Source of the DNA: Candidatus Obscuribacterales bacterium
GTDB taxonomy: Bacteria; Cyanobacteriota; Vampirovibrionia; Obscuribacterales; Obscuribacteraceae
Assembly (NCBI GenBank): GCA_031292355.1
Contig: JARLHI010000054.1
Span: 248,001 to 312,000, forward strand
Direction: 5' to 3'
DNA length: 64,000 nucleotides
This document shows, piece after piece, positions 16,115-27,870 of the stretch. The first letter of the stretch is position 1. Every line of letters starts with the position of its first letter. The notes beneath the pieces are model-generated. The model did no database searches, was not told the DNA's origin, and saw only the letters and a program-made list of their open reading frames with translations. The position numbers and the translations under genes were made by a program.

Positions 16115-17416
16115 CTAGGCCGTTGGTACGCTAGAAGGGCTCGAGTTATGCAGTTGCGCGTATACATGATCTGCATTGACTGCACGACCACCCAGCGATG
16201 CGCTTCTTTCATATTGCGATTGGAATACACGAGCAGCTTCTTGTGGAGTCTCTGCCTGTTTGAGAGCGACCATAGCGCCGTGCTCTTTGCCATTCAATTC
16301 GTGCATAACAAAATCAGCTTGCACATGCCAATCCGTAACCGGCTTGCCTTCTGCGCGCGCGAAGTTTTCTAGATCGGTTCGACGGCTTCCTTCCCACTGA
16401 CAGAAACCAATTGCGCCTTCGGCACGATTATGAGCGTCGGTGCGGAATGATGACTCTGTCTGGATATTGCCAAGAATACCTGATGCTTGGGCTTCAGTGA
16501 ATCCATGGTCTTTGAAATAGTCGAACAGCTGTTTGGCCTGGACTTGTTCGCCAGGTTGAATTGGACCATCGCCTCGACCGGTTGAAATCATGCCATCGCC
16601 TGAGCCACCATTACCTCTAAAGTGTCCGCCACCGTCGAAGCCACCATTACCCTCAAAACCACCACCAGCGCCATGACCATGACTGCTCACACCGCGATCA
16701 ACGAAACCGTTTTCTGGAGCAGGAGCAACAGGAGCATTAGGAGCTGGCTGGAAGGGTACAAAATCTGGCAGATTAGGTTTGGCGTTCGCGAGGTCGGTCA
16801 TCCACGAAGGTGCTGGTTTTCCAGGATGAGCCTTCTGGTAAAGACGAATCATTTCTTGAGCCGCTTGTTTTTGATTATCTGATTCATGTTGAATAGCGTC
16901 GCGCAAACTCTTGTTGCCTTGTGGATCCTGGCTTTGAATTTGAACATTGATGCTGCCATCACTGCTTGGCGTCGCATTAGGATTAGCCACCATTTGACCG
17001 TCGGTGTTCAAGAAAAAATCTGGCTGCCGACTGGCTGCAGCGTTTTCGTCAGCAGAGCTAAAGCGAACTGGCGCACCGTTATCGACGGCCTGAGCAAATG
17101 GATTCGGAATGGAATTCGCTTCGCTACTCGAGCCAATGGTCACGGGAGGCAAAATGTCCGCCATCTGTGAATCAGCAGCAGAGGCGCTGGCCATAACTGG
17201 AGCATCATTAGCTCTGCCAATTGGCGCTAGCGGGTGCGATGTACCGCTCCAGGCTGGAGCAACTACATCGCTAGTCTGAGCAATTGGTTTGAGCGCTGCG
17301 GCGTCGCCAGTAATCGGAGACGAAAACGGATGATTAGCGGCAGAAAATGGCGACTGAGCAGTTGATGTTAACGCTGCCGGTTTGGCTAAGGCCTCGAATT
17401 GTGGTTGGTCGCTCAT
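16115..17416 (-). CDS. Phage-tail-lysozyme domain protein with long disordered N-terminus
   Basis: 433 residues from ATG 17416 (GTG 17425 possible). Residues 1-300 are Pro/Ala/Asn/Gly-rich and probably disordered, with a Gly/His-rich patch ('GHGAGGGFEGNGGFDGG'). The C-terminal ~130 residues are a phage-tail-type lysozyme domain: 'LFDYFKDHGFTEAQASGILG', 'NIQTESSFRTDAHN', 'AIGFCQWEGSRR' and 'FVMHELNG', with the catalytic Glu in 'QTESSF'. This domain cuts peptidoglycan in tail-associated lysozymes. There is no signal peptide and no phage gene nearby. Export by an injection or other non-Sec system, or a lysis role, is inference. Confidence 0.75.
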   Translation of the reverse strand: MSDQPQFEALAKPAALTSTAQSPFSAANHPFSSPITGDAAALKPIAQTSDVVAPAWSGTSHPLAPIGRANDAPVMASASAADSQMADILPPVTIGSSSEANSIPNPFAQAVDNGAPVRFSSADENAAASRQPDFFLNTDGQMVANPNATPSSDGSINVQIQSQDPQGNKSLRDAIQHESDNQKQAAQEMIRLYQKAHPGKPAPSWMTDLANAKPNLPDFVPFQPAPNAPVAPAPENGFVDRGVSSHGHGAGGGFEGNGGFDGGGHFRGNGGSGDGMISTGRGDGPIQPGEQVQAKQLFDYFKDHGFTEAQASGILGNIQTESSFRTDAHNRAEGAIGFCQWEGSRRTDLENFARAEGKPVTDWHVQADFVMHELNGKEHGAMVALKQAETPQEAARVFQSQYERSASLGGRAVNADHVYAQLHNSSPSSVPTA

Positions 17417-17596
17417 TGAAGACACTCTATCAGACTAGGATTCTATAGTTTTGAAGTTAACAAAAGAGCGTGACACGTTTGTGACTATCTACTCTTTATA
17501 CAACCCAAAACGCCTTCAAATCCAGCTCTTCTTCGTATTCCTCCCACGAAAAGCGAAACGAATTAACCCAATTTAAAAGAAACGCCGCAAATCAGA

Positions 17597-18786: not shown

Positions 18787-19950
18787 TTAGCGAATACTTG
18801 AACAATTAGTCTTCTGACTGATTCGCTGATAGAGTTCTTCGTATTGATGCACAATTGCGTCAGCCGAAAATCTCTTCTCGGCTTGTAATTTTGCCTCGAC
18901 TCCCAGTCGTGCTCGCAAATCCTTGTCTTCGATCAATCTCTCGACAGCTCTAGCTAGAGCATCGGCGCTGCCAAACGGCACGAGTAATCCAGATTTTTCG
19001 TTGTCGACAACTTCAGGTATGCCACCAACGGCGGTGGCGACGCTTGGACAGGCAAAAGACATTGCTTCGAGAATGCTTAGGCAGAAGCTCTCACTCTCTG
19101 AAGTAATTAGCCCGATATCGGCAGCTCCAAGATAATTTTCTATCTCCAGAATATTTTCACGCACAATGACTGTATCTTCAAGCCCCAGCCTGCGGACATC
19201 ATCCATGAACGGCGCAAAATTTCCACCTGCAAGAATAACTAATTTGAACGCTTGACGCGTCCTAATGCGGGCAGCAGTTTCGAGAAGCAAATCGATACGT
19301 TTCATCGGGCGCAAATTTGATGAATGCAAAAGCATTATTTCGTCGCCCATACCGAGTTCATTGCGAACTTCCTCGCGACTTTGTTGAACAGGATGAGGTT
19401 CAAAGAAATTATGAATGACTGAAATTGGTCCCTTAAACCCAAGCACCTTGCGACTCTCGATTTTTAGATATTCAGAAACCGTTGTCACGGCATCAGACTG
19501 AGTCAGGGCGTGGACGATTGCCGGTCCGTATCCAGGATCTTTGCCAAGCAGTGTTGTGTCTGTACCATGCAAGGTCGTGATAATTTTCGGTTGCTTGTGC
19601 GGAGGCAGCATGCAGCGCGAAAGAATAGCAGCTGTGGCATGGGGCACGGCATAGTGCACATGCAAAACATCAAGCTCGTACTGGCAGCTGATCTCTGCCA
19701 TTTTTACCGATAAAGGTAAAGTGTAATCTGGATACTTGAACAGACCATAATCATTGATAGTGACAGGGTGAAAGAAAATCCGTTCCTGGTCAGCTGGAAG
19801 CCGAAAAGGACGTTCATAACTGATGAAGTGAACCTGGTGCCCGCGCTTAGCTAACTCCACGCCAAGCGTTGTCGCGATGATGCCACTGCCGCCAACGGAC
19901 GGATAGCAGGTGATGCCAATTTTGAGCGGTCTCTGATTTGTTGTATCCAT
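18787..19950 (-). CDS. bshA: N-acetyl-alpha-D-glucosaminyl L-malate synthase BshA
   Basis: 387 residues, close to the usual ~380. It is a GT4/GT-B glycosyltransferase. The opening 'KIGITCYPSVGGSGIIATTL' with the G-G-S-G loop, 'HVHYAVPHA', 'TTLHGTDTTLLG' and 'VSEYLK' are BshA hallmarks. The sugar-nucleotide site is 'SESESFCLSILEAM'. BshA transfers GlcNAc from UDP-GlcNAc to L-malate, the first step of bacillithiol synthesis in the cytoplasm. It is the last gene of the operon, 25 bp after bshB1. A 'GAGAG' ribosome site precedes the ATG. Confidence 0.92.
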   Translation of the reverse strand: MDTTNQRPLKIGITCYPSVGGSGIIATTLGVELAKRGHQVHFISYERPFRLPADQERIFFHPVTINDYGLFKYPDYTLPLSVKMAEISCQYELDVLHVHYAVPHATAAILSRCMLPPHKQPKIITTLHGTDTTLLGKDPGYGPAIVHALTQSDAVTTVSEYLKIESRKVLGFKGPISVIHNFFEPHPVQQSREEVRNELGMGDEIMLLHSSNLRPMKRIDLLLETAARIRTRQAFKLVILAGGNFAPFMDDVRRLGLEDTVIVRENILEIENYLGAADIGLITSESESFCLSILEAMSFACPSVATAVGGIPEVVDNEKSGLLVPFGSADALARAVERLIEDKDLRARLGVEAKLQAEKRFSADAIVHQYEELYQRISQKTNCSSIR

Positions 19951-19978
19951 TTTCAGTCTCTCATTGAAAGTCGTCTAT

Positions 19979-20704
19979 TTAGAAATTTCGAGCCCCGCGT
20001 CCTAGTTGCGATAGAGAATCGAAAAGTAATGCTTCGTTGGAATACAAGGCCATCGCATACTCCACACCGACGCGCGCTCCAAGCAAACGTGCCCGAGTCA
20101 ATTGCAATTCAGCATAATTACGGGTGGCGGCCTGCGATTTGTGAGCGTGCATTGCGCCGCTCCAGAGAGCCATCACTTCAGGATGTGAAACATCTATGAG
20201 AAAAGGAGGGATATCCGACGGCTCACCATCAGGGGTGACGGCATAGAAAAACAATTGCTCAATAGCGTGTGGTTTAGTCTTTTGCAAGTCAGAAAGACCA
20301 CCATAGCGAGCCAATCTCGCAGCATCACGCACAAGTTGTCCAAGTCGTGAGTGATCCGGATGTTGATTGGCGACAACGCTTGTAGTCAACACAGTAGCTG
20401 GTCGCATTCGTCGGATGATTTGCGCTAATTTCAAAGCATGAGAAACACGAATCTCCAGATGCGAATCACCATCCAATTCGATAAATTCTATTGTCGCTCC
20501 AAGAATTTCGGCAGCCGCTTTCGCCTCAGCAATACGCTCTCGAGCCGTGCCACTGCTTGCGGCTTCTCCAGCGGATGTGACAACGAAATGGGTTTTACGT
20601 CCAGCCCGAGTCTCGCGGGCAATGATTGCGCCTGCGCCAAATTCAATATCATCCGGGTGCGCGCCAAACACCAGGAGGGGCTCTACTTTAGGTAATTTCT
20701 GCAT
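19979..20704 (-). CDS. bshB1: Bacillithiol biosynthesis deacetylase BshB1
   Basis: 241 residues from ATG 20704, chosen because 'GAGGTGT' lies just upstream and the protein then begins near the usual point before 'LLVFGAHPDDIEFGAG'. An ATG-type start at 20737 is possible. PIG-L/LmbE zinc site: 'AHPDD' near residue 14 and 'ANQHPDHSRLG' near 117. 'TSAGEAASSGTARERIAEA' is typical of BshB1. It deacetylates GlcNAc-malate to GlcN-malate. The start lies inside the BshC-like gene (17-bp overlap), so translation is coupled. Confidence 0.9.
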   Translation of the reverse strand: MQKLPKVEPLLVFGAHPDDIEFGAGAIIARETRAGRKTHFVVTSAGEAASSGTARERIAEAKAAAEILGATIEFIELDGDSHLEIRVSHALKLAQIIRRMRPATVLTTSVVANQHPDHSRLGQLVRDAARLARYGGLSDLQKTKPHAIEQLFFYAVTPDGEPSDIPPFLIDVSHPEVMALWSGAMHAHKSQAATRNYAELQLTRARLLGARVGVEYAMALYSNEALLFDSLSQLGRGARNF

Positions 20705-21470
20705 ACACCTCTGTAAATGCCTCATCCGAAAGCTCAACTACGTCACGTGTAACAAATTCAATTTCTGGTGCCTGCGTTTTATCTAAATAGTCCTGTTCAC
20801 CAGCACCACTAACGTAATGCGTGCAATGGATCACTGATTGCATCCAGAGCAAGCGTGTGTCCCTAGTGGGGCTAATTTGTGCTGCAGTAAACTCTGTCAG
20901 GGGCAGATTTATATATTCTGAACCGCCTTCATGCAATTTGAAAGATTCAGCATCATGGCGAGCGCGCACAATTTCATTTTCGTAAAGGATGTCGACAAAA
21001 TAGTCGTCGATAGCGCATGCCCTGTTGCGAAAATCAGGACTGCTCGAACGCATCACTGTCACACCTTCAAGCAATCCCATCTTGTCGTACATCTCCAGAC
21101 AAAAATCAGCGATAAGCTTAGAGTTTGCATTCTTAAAAAGATTGATTAATGAATGATCTAAATAATTCGGCAGCTGTCCGGTTGTTTTAGCCTGCCACCC
21201 TTCGGCTACACGTTTTTTATAAAGTGGTGAAAATTTGCGCTGGATTTTATTTTCAAAAGTGAAATTTAAAGAAGCTGGTTCATTTGTAGTCCGATGACGA
21301 AGAATCGTTTTCGTTTCGCGTGGATCATGATCACTATCATGATAGAAAAACACAATCTCTCCGCCAATTTCCTTTTGTAAACGTCTAGCGGTTTGAATTT
21401 TAGCCACAAGAAAACGCTTCGGAAAAAATCCGCATGGTTGCTGCCCGAAACAGATAATTGGTTTACTCAC
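20688..21470 (-). CDS. Compact BshC-like protein (putative bacillithiol cysteine ligase)
   Basis: 260 residues, about half the usual BshC (~530). The GTG start overlaps the symporter stop as GTGA. BshC-like blocks occur in the right order: 'ICFGQQPCGFFPKRFLVAKI' (BshC has T-G-Q-Q-x-G ... K), 'IVFFYHDSDHDPRE' (BshC: V-F-W-x-A-x-E-D-H-D), and near the C-terminus 'HYVSGAGEQDYLDKTQ' (BshC: Y-V-x-G-P-x-E-x-x-Y). The long central coiled-coil insertion of canonical BshC is missing. BshC adds cysteine to GlcN-malate. Placement between the symporter and bshB1 supports that step. Assignment is by motif and context only. Confidence 0.65.
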   Translation of the reverse strand: MSKPIICFGQQPCGFFPKRFLVAKIQTARRLQKEIGGEIVFFYHDSDHDPRETKTILRHRTTNEPASLNFTFENKIQRKFSPLYKKRVAEGWQAKTTGQLPNYLDHSLINLFKNANSKLIADFCLEMYDKMGLLEGVTVMRSSSPDFRNRACAIDDYFVDILYENEIVRARHDAESFKLHEGGSEYINLPLTEFTAAQISPTRDTRLLWMQSVIHCTHYVSGAGEQDYLDKTQAPEIEFVTRDVVELSDEAFTEVYAEIT

Positions 21471-23176
21471 GATGTCACTTCTTTGATTGAGTCTCGATTT
21501 TTGGATAACGCTGCTTGCAGAATCAAGCTAAAAAGAACGCATGCCGCACAACCGATTAGAGGATACCAGAGATAGGATATGGTCAAATTGAAATAGAGAA
21601 AAAAGACGAGGGTCTGAGCCGTCAGTGCCGCCCAGAAAATAGCCGTACCACCAACTCTTTTGATGAAGAAGGCGACCAGAAACAGTGCAAGCATCACACC
21701 ATAAAAAATAGAGCCTAGAATATTTACAGCCTGAATTAGGTTCTCGGCCAGATGCGCGCAAAGGGCAAAACCAATGGCCACAAAACCCCATAAGGCCGTG
21801 AAAGCTTTGGTGATGTTTAGAGTGTCATGATCGCTGGTACCACGTCTAATCAGACGATAAATATCCATGCTGGTGCTGGTGCCCAGAGCATTTAACTCCG
21901 CTGCTTTGGAAGACAAAGCTGCTGCAAAAAATGCCGCCATCAACAAACCAATGACACCGTGCGGTAGTTCGTGCAAAATGAAAGTAATGAATACATAATC
22001 AGCGTCGTTGGCCTTAATTTCAGGGGCCTTGCGCCCCAATTCTTGAGCAGCCAAAACACGAAGTTTTTCGCCTTCGCCTTGACTGACAAGAGCAGACGAA
22101 AAGGCAGATTTCGCTGCCGCATCATCGCCCTTATGGCGTGCAGCCAGCCAGTTTTGCAATTGCTGCTTGGTATTAGCGTGCGTGACATTAAAGTCTCTCT
22201 GATAGGCAGCAAGCTGGGGATTGTCTTTATGCTGTTCAATATAATCGCTTGACGCTGAATTAAAAAATAATGGTGGTTGCTCGAACTGGTAAAAAACAAA
22301 CATCAAAACACCAAGTAGCAAAATGGCAAATTGCATCGGAATTTTACAGACAGCGTTGAACATCAGCCCCAGACGACTTTCCCGCAATGAATGACCGGAT
22401 ATATAACGCTGCACCTGCGATTGATCCGTTCCAAAGTACGACAGCATCAAAAAAGTGCCACCAATCAAGCCAGACCAGAAGGTATAACGCTCATGCACAC
22501 TGGTTGAAAAATTAACGGCATTGAGCTTATGAAAACCGCCAGCCAGTTTGAAGGTGTCGAACAAATTGAGGTCGGTGGGCAATTTCGCAATCAACAGATA
22601 GCCAGCAGAAACCATGCCGGCGAAAATAATTGCCATCTGATATTTCTGAGTAACGGTGACTGCGTCACTACCACCAAGCACTGTATAGAGAATTACCAGC
22701 AGACCGCAACTGATAATGGTGACATTGAGTGGCCAGCCTATTACTGTAGTCAAAACAATGGCTGGAGCATAAATGGTCAAACCGGCACCCAGTCCCCTTT
22801 GCAATAAAAAGAGAGCGGCTCCAAGCAGTCGCGTTTTGCTATCAAAGCGCTTTTCCAAATATTCATAAGCCGTATAGACATTTAACTTTGAAAAAATTGG
22901 TAGAAAGAAAACAGCGATAATGATCAATGCAATCGGTACACCAAAATAAATCTGCACAAAGCTCAAACCGCCAAGATAACCTTGCCCCGGCGTCGATAAA
23001 AATGTGATGGCGCTGGCTTGTGTAGCCATCACTGATAAACCAATGGCAAACCAGGGTGTCTGTCCTTTTCCTCTTAAATAAGTATCGAGATCGTCACGGT
23101 TGCGCGTCTGCCAGATGCCATAAACCGAGATACCGATCATGGTCCCTATCAAAATGAAAAGGTCCAGGGAATTCAC
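21467..23176 (-). CDS. Sodium:solute symporter (SSS family) of the bacillithiol operon
   Basis: 569 residues, GTG start overlapping the stop of the 54-aa peptide gene. About 13 membrane helices are visible. SSS signatures include 'LSVMATQASAITFLSTPGQG', 'TAYEYLEKRF', 'LYTVLGGSDAVTVTQKYQM' and 'SYFGTDQSQVQRYISG'. A ~110-residue hydrophilic insert with Ala/Gln/Lys-rich sequence lies near residues 300-410, longer than in typical members. I recall an SSS gene beside bsh genes in Bacteroidota as well. The solute is unknown; a thiol precursor or product is a guess. Confidence 0.85.
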   Translation of the reverse strand: MNSLDLFILIGTMIGISVYGIWQTRNRDDLDTYLRGKGQTPWFAIGLSVMATQASAITFLSTPGQGYLGGLSFVQIYFGVPIALIIIAVFFLPIFSKLNVYTAYEYLEKRFDSKTRLLGAALFLLQRGLGAGLTIYAPAIVLTTVIGWPLNVTIISCGLLVILYTVLGGSDAVTVTQKYQMAIIFAGMVSAGYLLIAKLPTDLNLFDTFKLAGGFHKLNAVNFSTSVHERYTFWSGLIGGTFLMLSYFGTDQSQVQRYISGHSLRESRLGLMFNAVCKIPMQFAILLLGVLMFVFYQFEQPPLFFNSASSDYIEQHKDNPQLAAYQRDFNVTHANTKQQLQNWLAARHKGDDAAAKSAFSSALVSQGEGEKLRVLAAQELGRKAPEIKANDADYVFITFILHELPHGVIGLLMAAFFAAALSSKAAELNALGTSTSMDIYRLIRRGTSDHDTLNITKAFTALWGFVAIGFALCAHLAENLIQAVNILGSIFYGVMLALFLVAFFIKRVGGTAIFWAALTAQTLVFFLYFNLTISYLWYPLIGCAACVLFSLILQAALSKNRDSIKEVTS

Positions 23177-23337
23177 GAAAAGAACTCCGTCAAAGCAAAC
23201 AAGAGGACGATCCAGAGAATGAAGCTAGCCATGGTGAACACATACGTTGACTGCCAAGTCGACAGATATGGCAAACCCGTAGTGTCTTCATGCTCCAAGT
23301 GAACGACTTCATTCTCAATAGTCAAAGAGTTATTCAA
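23173..23337 (-). CDS. 54-aa membrane peptide coupled to the symporter
   Basis: The frame starts at TTG (23335-23337) with AGGAG about 8 nt upstream and ends at TGA 23173-23175. That stop overlaps the GTG of the symporter by two bases (GTGA). The sequence is an acidic N-terminus ('ENEVVHLEHEDTTG'), then 'STWQSTYVFTMASFILWIVL' and 'LFALTEFFS'. This is one membrane helix with a soluble N-terminal half. Small one-helix subunits accompany several secondary transporters. The tight coupling suggests an accessory subunit of the symporter. It is too short for standard gene calling and may be missed in annotations. Confidence 0.6.
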   Translation of the reverse strand: MNNSLTIENEVVHLEHEDTTGLPYLSTWQSTYVFTMASFILWIVLLFALTEFFS

Positions 23338-23351
23338 GTATTTTCTCCTCT

Positions 23352-25949
23352 CTATTTCTCGATTGAAAGTAAATTTGCCATCAAGCGAAATGCCCCTGGC
23401 ACGCCCGCTGGCAGTTGGCGGAAGAAGGAAAGACCGGTATAGATCCAGTGCCCCTTTCCGTATTTGGCCACTAACAATGAGCTTTTGCTTGCTGGTTCAT
23501 CTGGATCGTTTATGGAAATAATAGGTTGAAAATGCTCGTCCCACTTATCTGGAAAATACAAGCCGCGCTCTTGCACCCAACCTTCAAAATCGGATTGTGT
23601 GATTTTGTTTGGTGTATTTAAGACCGGGCTATCGGGCGCAAGAAAGGTCACAGCTGATTTTTCATCGGTAACCCGGTCGGCCGAAATATGTAGATCATAC
23701 GGAGCAATTTTTTCCGTTTTTAACTGATTCAGGCGGTTGTTGCCGATGTTATATTGAGAAATGACCGTGCCACCATTTTGCACATAATCAAACAATACCG
23801 GCATCGCATTGCCAATATCTTTGCGCACATTGAAAATGCGCACCCCGAGAACTACTGCATCAAGCCCGCGCAACTGATTGGCGTCCAGATTTTTATCGTC
23901 GAGAATCTTAACTGCATAACCCATTTGTTCGAGATTTTCGGGCAAACTATCACCGGCCCCTGGCAAGTATCCAATAGTGTGTCCGCGTGTAATTAACTCG
24001 AAAGACACCGCTTTAATCGCAGCCGGTGTCTGCAACAACTGTGGTGGCAAATGAGCATAACTGACGCTATGATTTTGGCTGTGATAAACACGCTCTCCCA
24101 CTTTTGCGCTCGCGAGAATTCTTGCAGTTTCGGGTTTGGAAGGCGCCGTCACAGTAAATTTGAGAAGCTGATGCTGTCCGGTTTTTGCCAGATCGAAATT
24201 ATGCTCGGTGGGAATAATTTTCCAATCAGGTGGCGCTTCTAATTTCAGAATGCCCTTTTGCGCAGGGCGTGTAGCTGCAATTTCTACTTCCACAGTGTGT
24301 GTCGTTTTTGGCGTAAGTAGCACAACATCGGCTGTAAAACGCATGGACACAGGCGGAATTATATCCAGCGTGTGGGGAAACAGAACATCTTTTGCACCTT
24401 TTGATATTTGCACCGGTTGATCGCTGATCACCAATTTTTGACCACCAATTTCAAATACATCTTCTACAGGAAATGCTGGCGCGTTTTCCGCGGTGCCAAT
24501 CAAATCGGCATTGTCAACGGTAAACATGCCAGCCGAGCCTGACTTCTCCAACCAGTAGGGCTGGGTCAGTACAGCAGTCGCAGGCACCGTCTCGACAGAG
24601 TCGAATTTAACTGGACTTCCGCTTTTGAGTTGCACATCTCTTTTTATCTCTTTGGAGATACTCGGATAGCGCACGGCTACCCATGACACAGTGGTCTGAG
24701 GCGGAAGATCGGCACTCACGACAACACTATGATGCATTTGCAAAGTCTCGCCAGGCACAACATCTGCCTGTGCGATATTCGTCTCTACCTGCAGACCCAG
24801 GCAGGATTGCAGAATGCGGTCGAGAGATTTTTGCTTTTCGGCAACAATTATTGAGTCTGCTGTGCCATTTACTTGGGTAGCAAGTGAACCGAGGGTACTT
24901 CGAAGTTTCAGCAACGCTTCCACACTTTTGGCTGGATGCTGTTTATCGAATTTCGCAATTATCTCATCTACAGACTTTGCAATGGAATCGCCACCTGGCA
25001 CGCGATTCCAGCTAGTGTCAACACCATCCATGATGTCTTTGCCGGCAGGCTCTCCATCAAGCAGTTGGAATTTCTCAATGCGCTCCGGGTTTGCACTGCC
25101 AGGAAACTTAAAAGTATCGAATCCCTGCGTTTTATGCATGGCTCGACTCTTTTGCGCTATCTCGGTAAATGTTTCACCAGAGACAACGTCTTTACCACCA
25201 GCATCAATGCTTAAAGCTTGGACGTCCTTGGCTTTATCAGCCTGGAATGTGGAGATATTCCAGAATATTCGTTTAGCTTGCCATGGCTGCAACTGTTGTT
25301 CGGGAAAGGCTTTTGGATCAGCAGCTAATTTAAAAGCTTCGACAGCAAGGACAGCCGAGGCAGTGTGATGTCCGTGCGTGCCACCAGGACTGGGTGAAAA
25401 ACGAGTGACGATTATGTCTGGATGAAACTTTCGAATCACTCGCACTATGTCTGAAAGAACTTCTTGTTTATCCCAATTTTTTAGAGTCTCGAGATAATTT
25501 TTTGAGAAACCAAAATCGATGGCGCGCGAGAAGAATTGCTGCGCGCCGTCTAGTTGCCGAGCGGCGAGCAATTCTTGAGTGCGCGCGACACCGAGTTTTT
25601 CACCAAGGTCTGAACCAAGAACATTTTGTCCACCATCACCACGTGTGAGTGACATATATGCGGTGCGATAACTTCGTCCACGAGCAAGGTAAGCAAGCAG
25701 TTCGGTATTTTCATCATCTGGATGGGCAGCGATGTAGAGCACACTGCCCATCTGGCGAAATCCCTCTAATTCGTGCAGAACTTCGGCTGGTGCAACAGAT
25801 TTCATTTGAACTCCCGGAGCGGTATCAGAAAAGGCAGGCGTCGATACAATAGCCACCGCCGACAGTGCACAAACACCGCACAGCGCTGACAAAATTGTCC
25901 GACGCCAGCTTTTCAAAAGCGGCATCTTCAAAAAGATGACGTTTCTCAT
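23352..25949 (-). CDS. Large secreted PIG-L family deacetylase
   Basis: 865 residues. A signal peptide near residues 15-43 ('SALCGVCALSAVAIVSTPAFS') follows a long N-terminus; an ATG at residue 9 is an alternative start. The PIG-L zinc site is 'LYIAAHPDDENTELL' near residue 75 and 'GGTHGHHTASAVLAVEAF' near 190. The central part is beta-sandwich-like, and residues ~670-800 resemble a GATase1-like fold ('LRGLDAVVLGVRIFN', 'VQNGGTVISQYN'). Long PIG-L proteins of this plan are recurrent neighbours of bsh genes. Being exported, it cannot be BshB. It may act on envelope N-acetyl sugars. It ends 14 bp before the 54-aa peptide gene. Confidence 0.75.
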   Translation of the reverse strand: MRNVIFLKMPLLKSWRRTILSALCGVCALSAVAIVSTPAFSDTAPGVQMKSVAPAEVLHELEGFRQMGSVLYIAAHPDDENTELLAYLARGRSYRTAYMSLTRGDGGQNVLGSDLGEKLGVARTQELLAARQLDGAQQFFSRAIDFGFSKNYLETLKNWDKQEVLSDIVRVIRKFHPDIIVTRFSPSPGGTHGHHTASAVLAVEAFKLAADPKAFPEQQLQPWQAKRIFWNISTFQADKAKDVQALSIDAGGKDVVSGETFTEIAQKSRAMHKTQGFDTFKFPGSANPERIEKFQLLDGEPAGKDIMDGVDTSWNRVPGGDSIAKSVDEIIAKFDKQHPAKSVEALLKLRSTLGSLATQVNGTADSIIVAEKQKSLDRILQSCLGLQVETNIAQADVVPGETLQMHHSVVVSADLPPQTTVSWVAVRYPSISKEIKRDVQLKSGSPVKFDSVETVPATAVLTQPYWLEKSGSAGMFTVDNADLIGTAENAPAFPVEDVFEIGGQKLVISDQPVQISKGAKDVLFPHTLDIIPPVSMRFTADVVLLTPKTTHTVEVEIAATRPAQKGILKLEAPPDWKIIPTEHNFDLAKTGQHQLLKFTVTAPSKPETARILASAKVGERVYHSQNHSVSYAHLPPQLLQTPAAIKAVSFELITRGHTIGYLPGAGDSLPENLEQMGYAVKILDDKNLDANQLRGLDAVVLGVRIFNVRKDIGNAMPVLFDYVQNGGTVISQYNIGNNRLNQLKTEKIAPYDLHISADRVTDEKSAVTFLAPDSPVLNTPNKITQSDFEGWVQERGLYFPDKWDEHFQPIISINDPDEPASKSSLLVAKYGKGHWIYTGLSFFRQLPAGVPGAFRLMANLLSIEK

Positions 25950-25951
25950 TT

Positions 25952-26809
25952 TTACTTCAAACTACTGATCAGATCGTCATTCATTTTCACGTAACCAGGT
26001 TCGTTTGCTTTTACAGCAAGCTCGCTAGAGTGTTTAGCGGCAGCAATAGCGCCTTCTTTATCGCCCAACTTTTTGAGAATTTCAGCTTTGAGATAAACAA
26101 TGTAATGGGCATCACGTTCAGCGATAGCCGCATCTACCCATTTTTTTGCTTTCTGTAAATCCAGACCATTATTGTAGTAGAACATCGCCGCTTGAAAATA
26201 AGGTTTTTTAGCATTGTCCGAATCCATTACTGCATCAATTTGCGAACGTAATTTGTCGGCGAAATTCACTTCAATTTTGACTGGTACTTTGGTTTTATCC
26301 CAGACCATCACGAGCTCAGAAGAGTTGTCTTTGATGTCATCTATGTTGATAGCAAAGGTTTCTACAGAACGGCTAATTTCCACAGGCTTTGCTTTAATGC
26401 GAGCCACATCATCTTTTTCGTCGTACTTATAGGCGCCCCATTGTTCTGCACCTTTGTTGATGATTACGGTCCATTCATCTTTACCGGGTATCGCAAAAAG
26501 AGCATAGGTGCCTGCGGCAACATCGGTACCATTGAGTTTGACTGGAGTGCTGAAAATAATCTTGGTGGCTTGATTAGCACCGGCACGCCACACTTTGTCA
26601 TAAGGCACGAGACCACCGAAAACTTCGCGACCTCTAATGCTTGGCCTTGAGTAATCAATTTCGATGTCGGTCAAACCGACTCGTTGCTTCAATGTGCAGG
26701 CTGGACTGGGTGCCGGAAACTCAACCTTGGGAGCTTCAGCAAACACAGCTGAAGTCGCAGCCAAACTCAGACCGGTTGCCAGAATCAAAGAAAAAGTTTT
26801 GAATTTCAT
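25952..26809 (-). CDS. Secreted DUF2911 protein with C-terminal TPR
   Basis: 285 residues from ATG 26809, which gives a direct signal peptide ('LILATGLSLAATSAVFA'). DUF2911 blocks are clear: 'SPACTLKQRVGLTDIEIDYS', 'RPSIRGREVFGGLVPYDKVW', 'RAGANQATKIIFSTPV' and 'AGTYALFAIPG'. The C-terminal ~90 residues form a TPR-like helical region ('AAMFYYNNGLDLQKAKKWVD'). DUF2911 has no assigned activity. It is the first gene of the bacillithiol operon, its stop two bases before the PIG-L gene. Confidence 0.85.
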   Translation of the reverse strand: MKFKTFSLILATGLSLAATSAVFAEAPKVEFPAPSPACTLKQRVGLTDIEIDYSRPSIRGREVFGGLVPYDKVWRAGANQATKIIFSTPVKLNGTDVAAGTYALFAIPGKDEWTVIINKGAEQWGAYKYDEKDDVARIKAKPVEISRSVETFAINIDDIKDNSSELVMVWDKTKVPVKIEVNFADKLRSQIDAVMDSDNAKKPYFQAAMFYYNNGLDLQKAKKWVDAAIAERDAHYIVYLKAEILKKLGDKEGAIAAAKHSSELAVKANEPGYVKMNDDLISSLK

Positions 26810-26902
26810 TGTTATGTCCATTAGTATTTGCCAGCCTGTTTAACGCTTCAGGCGCGCGTTTGATCACTTTCGTCCGCAAAAGGATCGAGCATTAGACTAT
26901 CA

Positions 26903-26940: not shown

Positions 26941-27870
26941 CTAATCGCTTTCGTACTGCACCGGACCACCATTTGTGGCAACAAGCATATTGAGGAATGC
27001 TTTTGCCACTCGATTGGACGGCTTACCATCGCGCCCTTTGTAAGCGACGATAAGCTCCCAGCAAGGCGCTTGGCCGTCAGCCAGCTCGACAACAGCAATT
27101 GGACTGGCCGAAACATCATTGAACCTGGCCATGGCCACCGATTCAGGAATCAAAGCCACGCCCAGCCCCACTGCAACTAGCTCTAATAGCATCGAAATAT
27201 CATTGACTTCAAAGGCGATCGTACGCGCAAGCCCCTTTGTGGCGAAGCTGCGGTCAATCAAACGACGCATACCCCAGTCTGCTTTGAGATCAATGAATGT
27301 TTCAGCGCACAAATCTGCCATCACCGGCGGTGCTGCGCCAGCAAGCGGATTATTAGGAGCGCAAACCAGAACCAAGTCTTCGCAGGCAAGCATTCGGGCA
27401 GTCATACCGCTGCCCACATCTTCTGGCTGAGTAAAAACGAGGTCAAGTCGACCTTCATGCGTCTCACTGAGCAGCGAAAGGGCTCCATCAAGTAAAAGTT
27501 GCACATCGATGCCTGGATGTTTCTGGCGGAAGCGACTGAGGGACGCCGGCAAATCCACAAATGGAGCGAGACTTTGAATCGAGCCGATGCGCAACTGCCC
27601 CCGAGCCAGACCATGCACTTGCGTGACAGCCAGGCGCGCCTGCCGCATCGCTGAAACAACGCGATATGCTTCTTGCAATAGAACTACACCTGCCGGAGTA
27701 AGGTCGACATGGCGGGTCGTCCGGATAAAAAGCGGTCCTCCCAGTTCTAGCTCTAGGGAGCGGATTGTCTGCGATAGACCAGATTGGACCAGATTAAGAC
27801 GCTGAGCGGCCTTAGTAAAATGGCGCTCTTCGGCAACGGCGATAAAGCAATCCAGTTGCTTCAAATCCAT
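26941..27870 (-). CDS. LysR-family transcriptional regulator
   Basis: 309 residues. The N-terminal winged helix-turn-helix is classic: 'MDLKQLDCFIAVAEERHFTK', 'AAQRLNLVQSGLSQTIRSLE' and 'LGGPLFIRTTRHVDLT'. A co-inducer-binding domain of the periplasmic-binding-protein fold follows ('GQLRIGSIQSLAPF'). It is transcribed divergently from the aldo/keto reductase gene 173 bp away, the usual arrangement for a LysR activator and its target. An inverted repeat lies between them. The effector is unknown. Confidence 0.9.
   Translation of the reverse strand: MDLKQLDCFIAVAEERHFTKAAQRLNLVQSGLSQTIRSLELELGGPLFIRTTRHVDLTPAGVVLLQEAYRVVSAMRQARLAVTQVHGLARGQLRIGSIQSLAPFVDLPASLSRFRQKHPGIDVQLLLDGALSLLSETHEGRLDLVFTQPEDVGSGMTARMLACEDLVLVCAPNNPLAGAAPPVMADLCAETFIDLKADWGMRRLIDRSFATKGLARTIAFEVNDISMLLELVAVGLGVALIPESVAMARFNDVSASPIAVVELADGQAPCWELIVAYKGRDGKPSNRVAKAFLNMLVATNGGPVQYESD

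Follow-up and report, generated by a model that had tools for sequence, protein, structure and literature searches.

The gene shortC encodes a 260-residue, core-only relative of BshC that is likely (probability of about 0.8) to be a minimal form of this protein performing cysteine ligation; its activity and its product are inferred, and there are no thiol data. The gene lies in a 64,000-nucleotide stretch of DNA (the window) from an Obscuribacterales bacterium. That shortC represents a real, conserved and compact core-only subfamily of the BshC superfamily is shown at the level of fold, homology and conservation. The family is undescribed in the literature searched and in the Pfam and NCBIfam models, and no paper joining bacillithiol and Melainabacteria was found in that literature.

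In bacillithiol synthesis BshA makes GlcNAc-malate, BshB deacetylates it and BshC, which dimerises via its coiled coil, adds cysteine (PMC4360819, PMC6282198). A 2015 review noted that in vitro activity of BshC had yet to be demonstrated and that the mechanism of the ligation was unknown (PMC4360819).

The shortC cassette

The cassette is encoded on the minus strand, and its members are, in order of transcription: a DUF2911 protein with an apparent signal peptide, the outermost member (25952..26821; PF11138, E 1.7e-58); an 865-aa protein with an N-terminal PIG-L domain and an apparent signal peptide (23352..25949; PF02585, E 7e-16), whose best thiol-family match is a weak one to Mca (52 bits, far under the cut-off); a sodium:solute symporter (SSF; 21467..23176; PF00474, and TIGR00813 over the cut-off); shortC, the proposed cysteine ligase (20688..21470; identified by fold, profile homology and synteny); a BshB1-like PIG-L deacetylase (19979..20704; PF02585); and BshA, N-acetyl-alpha-D-glucosaminyl L-malate synthase (18787..19950; TIGR03999, 393 bits against a cut-off of 273.7). 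The best match of the deacetylase is TIGR04001 (BshB1; E 3.5e-38, 131.6 bits, under the cut-off of 182.5); its open reading frame reaches to 20737, with an ATG at 20704. The start of shortC overlaps the stop of the symporter by 4 nt and its end overlaps bshB1 by 17 nt, overlaps from which a single transcript with coupled translation is inferred.

The earlier note, made from the sequence alone, had described a bacillithiol operon with clear BshA and BshB1 and with a 260-residue protein between BshB1 and a symporter. The operon held, although the cassette is wider than the bacillithiol genes alone; the 260-residue protein and its coordinates were confirmed; BshA held, being over its cut-off, while BshB1 is a best match that stays under the TIGR04001 cut-off.

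A LysR-family regulator gene (26941-27870) lies on the same strand directly upstream of the cassette and is a possible regulator; a 436-aa protein with a phage tail lysozyme domain (PF18013) is encoded downstream (16115-17425). Relatives of the 865-aa PIG-L protein (about 27-38% identical) occur on plasmids in Alphaproteobacteria, and no link of these plasmid relatives to bacillithiol was found. No plasmid-borne shortC was present in the collection searched.

Comparison of shortC with BshC

The window shortC used as a single query gave no Pfam or NCBIfam match and nothing useful in a PDB sequence search. The PF10079 (BshC) cut-off was reached by no family member: two of the 64 sequences aligned, the window protein included, match this model weakly (best E 0.002, 17.9 bits versus 27). 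The relationship appears at the level of structure and profiles. The AlphaFold2 model of shortC is confident (pLDDT 94.7, pTM 0.91), and a Foldseek search of it against all solved structures retrieved B. subtilis BshC (4WBD) with an E-value of 3.6e-10, a probability of 1.00 and a TM-score, by query length, of 0.68. This was the only match under 1e-3; the next one was at 9e-3. A canonical verrucomicrobial BshC, modelled likewise to serve as a control (pLDDT 90.2), matched 4WBD at 9.5e-38. The BshC Rossmann-like fold is thus predicted by the model to be present in shortC. The next-best matches, class I aminoacyl-tRNA synthetases (GluRS, TyrRS), are weak (E 9e-3 and worse; TM-score at most about 0.36, compared to 0.68 for BshC), and shortC lacks their tRNA-binding domains. 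MshC and CysRS share with shortC a class I synthetase-like core, and their ligation of cysteine to a glucosamine amine is analogous chemistry; unlike BshC, they are not among its top structural matches.

Homology was also shown by profiles: hhalign of the shortC profile against BshC gave an E-value of 1.3e-7 (probability 94) over the first half, and the second half, the C-terminal block, aligned separately, collinear but weak (E 0.006). The real profile gave E-values between 1.3e-7 and 3e-4, whereas ten column-shuffled control profiles did no better than 0.06.

The secondary structure of shortC follows residues 83-362 of the full BshC model in order. The elements (E, strand; H, helix) were paired by order and sequence alignment, not by superposition of both models, as follows (shortC/BshC): E5-10/E83-89, H19-35/H98-118, E38-43/E122-128, H50-53/H135-138, E55-58/E140-143, E65-68/E146-149, H92-102/H165-178, H106-113/H185-192, H120-130/H199-210, E137-141/E217-219, E157-163/E268-274, E166-172/E279-286, E177-182/E289-292, E185-189/E295-298, E199-201/E313-315, H206-214/H320-327, E218-221/E330-335, H225-228/H337-343 and E238-241/E359-362. 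BshC (YllA; PF10079 plus PF24850) has about 520-540 residues compared to the 260 of shortC, and the difference is accounted for as follows: missing from shortC are the first ~80 residues of BshC; three helical stretches of the core (the long helices at 226-255, reduced to one short helix, and those at 299-312 and 347-352); and all of BshC beyond residue ~365, that is, the C-terminal coiled coil. The coiled-coil domain PF24850 was matched by all three true BshC proteins scanned, and not by shortC.

Residues were compared on a merged alignment of shortC and BshC. The core residues are kept in part: shortC has the BshC residue at 16 of the 29 positions that are near-invariant in the BshC core, compared to 26 of the remaining 222 aligned columns (Fisher p 3e-7). 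The kept positions (reference BshC numbering) are G88, Q89, Q90, K103, F126, D132, D134, E137, G215, L216, R280, R320, G336, E339, Y342 and R363, and include the GQQ, DHD, G-L, R, G-x-x-E-x-x-Y and final R positions common to both families. The BshC-shared motifs rank among the most conserved positions of the shortC family. The other 13 core positions are changed, among them the G-P pair that follows GQQ. The loss of the coiled coil has also removed the Q-E-R motif, which BshC keeps invariant near its C terminus.

Several residues are invariant in shortC alone: H44, C124, H180, C216 and H218 are absent at the aligned BshC positions, while H48 is common to the DHD of BshC, and C7 and C13 are near-invariant, not fully. 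In CysRS and MshC a zinc site selects cysteine. Whether the set C216, H218, H44 and H48, together with C7 and C13, forms a metal site in shortC is a possibility that remains merely a lead, because the family is compact and the set is inferred from conservation alone.

The blocks G-Q-Q, D-H-D and Y-V-x-G-x-x-E claimed earlier for the 260-residue protein therefore held, being collinear with BshC and aligned better than the shuffled controls. The absence of the coiled coil held as well, with the refinement that the N-terminal ~80 residues are also missing. A lack of structural match to BshC, which would have refuted the claim, was not observed: the match to 4WBD is specific.

Distribution and gene neighbourhood of shortC

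A total of 248 confirmed shortC loci were found among the 84,980 species genomes searched, belonging to Obscuribacterales, Verrucomicrobiota and a few Planctomycetota; 80 of them were fetched for closer study. Family members are 60-72% identical to the window protein in the 64-sequence alignment, and all but two of 101 sequences are 247-261 residues long, across phyla. It could be suspected that shortC is an artefact, either a bshC gene that was truncated or has degenerated or a contig from a contaminant, as the source genome is a 6.6-Mb draft of 83 contigs, 95.1% complete and with 5% contamination. This explanation was rejected and is all but excluded by the number of loci, their identity, their near-constant length across phyla and the presence of shortC in 21 of the 53 genomes of the order.

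Among the loci with enough flank, the neighbours of shortC were BshA (63/63), BshB1 (58/63), the symporter (65/71) and the PIG-L protein (57/63); the DUF2911 protein was found in most of the long loci. The constant core is therefore shortC and BshA, usually with BshB1, and the outer genes can be missing. Five cassettes have no bshB1 between shortC and bshA (L033, L037, L045, L082 and L097); another deacetylase must therefore act in them, perhaps one encoded elsewhere. The secreted-looking 865-aa PIG-L protein and the SSF symporter accompany the bacillithiol genes across phyla.

These counts bear on a possible alternative, in which shortC would be active only in a hetero-complex, with BshB1 or another protein supplying the missing surface. 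In favour of it are the lack of the coiled coil through which BshC dimerises; the description of the BshC active site as open to a protein, substrate or cofactor (PMC4360819); and the 17-nt overlap between shortC and bshB1, which suggests coupled translation. Against it, BshA is the only constant neighbour, since BshB1 is missing from five loci and the symporter from six; moreover, no coiled-coil family was found in the cassette. The suggestion in the earlier note of a subfamily with a different partner remains a possibility: the dimerising part is absent, and no cassette protein visibly replaces it.

The position of shortC is that of bshC. Of the 20 canonical loci fetched, 11 (the two from Verrucomicrobiota included) have BshB1- and BshA-like genes downstream of bshC on its own strand, and shortC, which also coexists with BshA and BshB1, occupies the place of canonical bshC upstream of bshB1-bshA in the operon. 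The PIG-L/symporter pair was suspected to accompany full-length bshC in Bacteroidota; at these 20 loci, none of them from that phylum, it was absent near canonical bshC. Bacteroidota and Acidobacteriota, a possible home of intermediate forms, were outside the surveys.

Of the 53 Obscuribacterales genomes, 21 carry shortC, and precisely these 21 carry BshA; this perfect co-occurrence is partly a product of linkage, and the genomes are mostly draft assemblies. A full-length bshC elsewhere, which would have refuted the reading of the earlier note, was not found in the genome of the window, in any of the 53 Obscuribacterales genomes (no PF10079 match) or over the PF10079 cut-off in the 36 genomes chosen for carrying shortC (0/36). 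Among 195 Verrucomicrobiota genomes, 13 carry shortC and two others BshC; among 246 Planctomycetota genomes, 129 carry canonical BshC and one other shortC, a sole case close to the end of its contig, for which a binning error is possible. No gene exceeded the MshC (TIGR03447) cut-off in the Obscuribacterales genomes (0/53), and the single CysRS/MshC-type gene in the genome of the window is CysRS-sized and lies on another contig.

A further alternative is that shortC is an accessory or regulatory BshC-like protein and that an unrelated enzyme encoded elsewhere ligates cysteine. Truncated relatives of enzymes can turn into regulators, and the loss of both N- and C-terminal domains is drastic. 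This is nevertheless very unlikely: shortC stands in the operon place of bshC and shows perfect co-occurrence with BshA; its most conserved positions include the motifs that it has in common with BshC; and neither an MshC nor a second BshC was found.

A clear YpdA-like bacillithiol disulfide reductase was found in only two of the 21 shortC genomes of Obscuribacterales, under the cut-off, and YpdA is not informative as a marker of bacillithiol use in this order. One of these genes is in the genome of the window (G000:C59:49516-50517, locus L181; 274 bits, cut-off 340) and encodes a candidate for this reductase.

In a quick BshA tree, with SH-aLRT support only, the BshA proteins of the cassette form one clade (100), apart from the BshA found beside canonical BshC. 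Within this clade, those of Obscuribacterales group together (97) inside the verrucomicrobial sequences, and three verrucomicrobial rows join them with a support of 96. The simplest reading inferred from this nesting is that Obscuribacterales acquired the cassette from Verrucomicrobiota.

The separation of the cassette BshA clade also bears on a third alternative, in which shortC ligates another amino acid, or the pathway has another acceptor, and the product is an analogue of bacillithiol. It is further favoured by the BshB1 score, under the equivalog cut-off, and by the family-specific invariant Cys and His residues. We consider it unlikely: the BshC-shared core residues are retained, and the window BshA is well over its equivalog cut-off, so that GlcNAc-malate is likely the scaffold.

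Proposed function of shortC

The best-supported reading remains the minimal cysteine ligase that the earlier note had proposed, with the activity inferred. Counting against it are the PF10079 scores under the cut-off, the 13 changed core positions and the lost Q-E-R motif, the five loci without BshB1 and the scarcity of YpdA-like reductases in shortC genomes of the order. In the proposed pathway, BshA would join GlcNAc and malate, BshB1 would take off the acetyl group, and shortC would complete bacillithiol synthesis by attaching cysteine to the amine thus exposed on GlcN-malate. For this reaction the class I aminoacyl-tRNA-synthetase-like Rossmann core would suffice in shortC, which has neither the N-terminal helices nor the coiled coil that mediates dimerisation of B. 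subtilis BshC. Its ability to work without the dimerisation domain, whether alone, as another oligomer or with a cassette partner, is inferred, as are the reaction and its product. A bolder reading, which is no more than possible, is that BshC is reduced in shortC to its minimal catalytic unit, active without a dimerisation domain and maybe carrying a Cys/His metal site, and that shortC serves a horizontally spread thiol cassette which also handles the thiol or its conjugates extracellularly by means of the secreted PIG-L protein and the symporter.

A 2018 survey described Verrucomicrobia and Planctomycetes as having no documented or predicted low-molecular-weight thiol (PMC6282198); the presence of canonical BshC in 129 of 246 Planctomycetota genomes runs against this statement. 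A 2025 survey counted bacillithiol producers only if BshC coverage exceeded 80% and the length was similar (PMC12719100), a filter which, with these demands, the shortC family cannot pass.

If shortC is the ligase, it would supply the missing step for these cassettes, predict bacillithiol in organisms in which this can be tested, and explain how lineages thought to be thiol-less could make a protective thiol. As a naturally stripped-down BshC, it points to the residues that matter and may be easier to assay.
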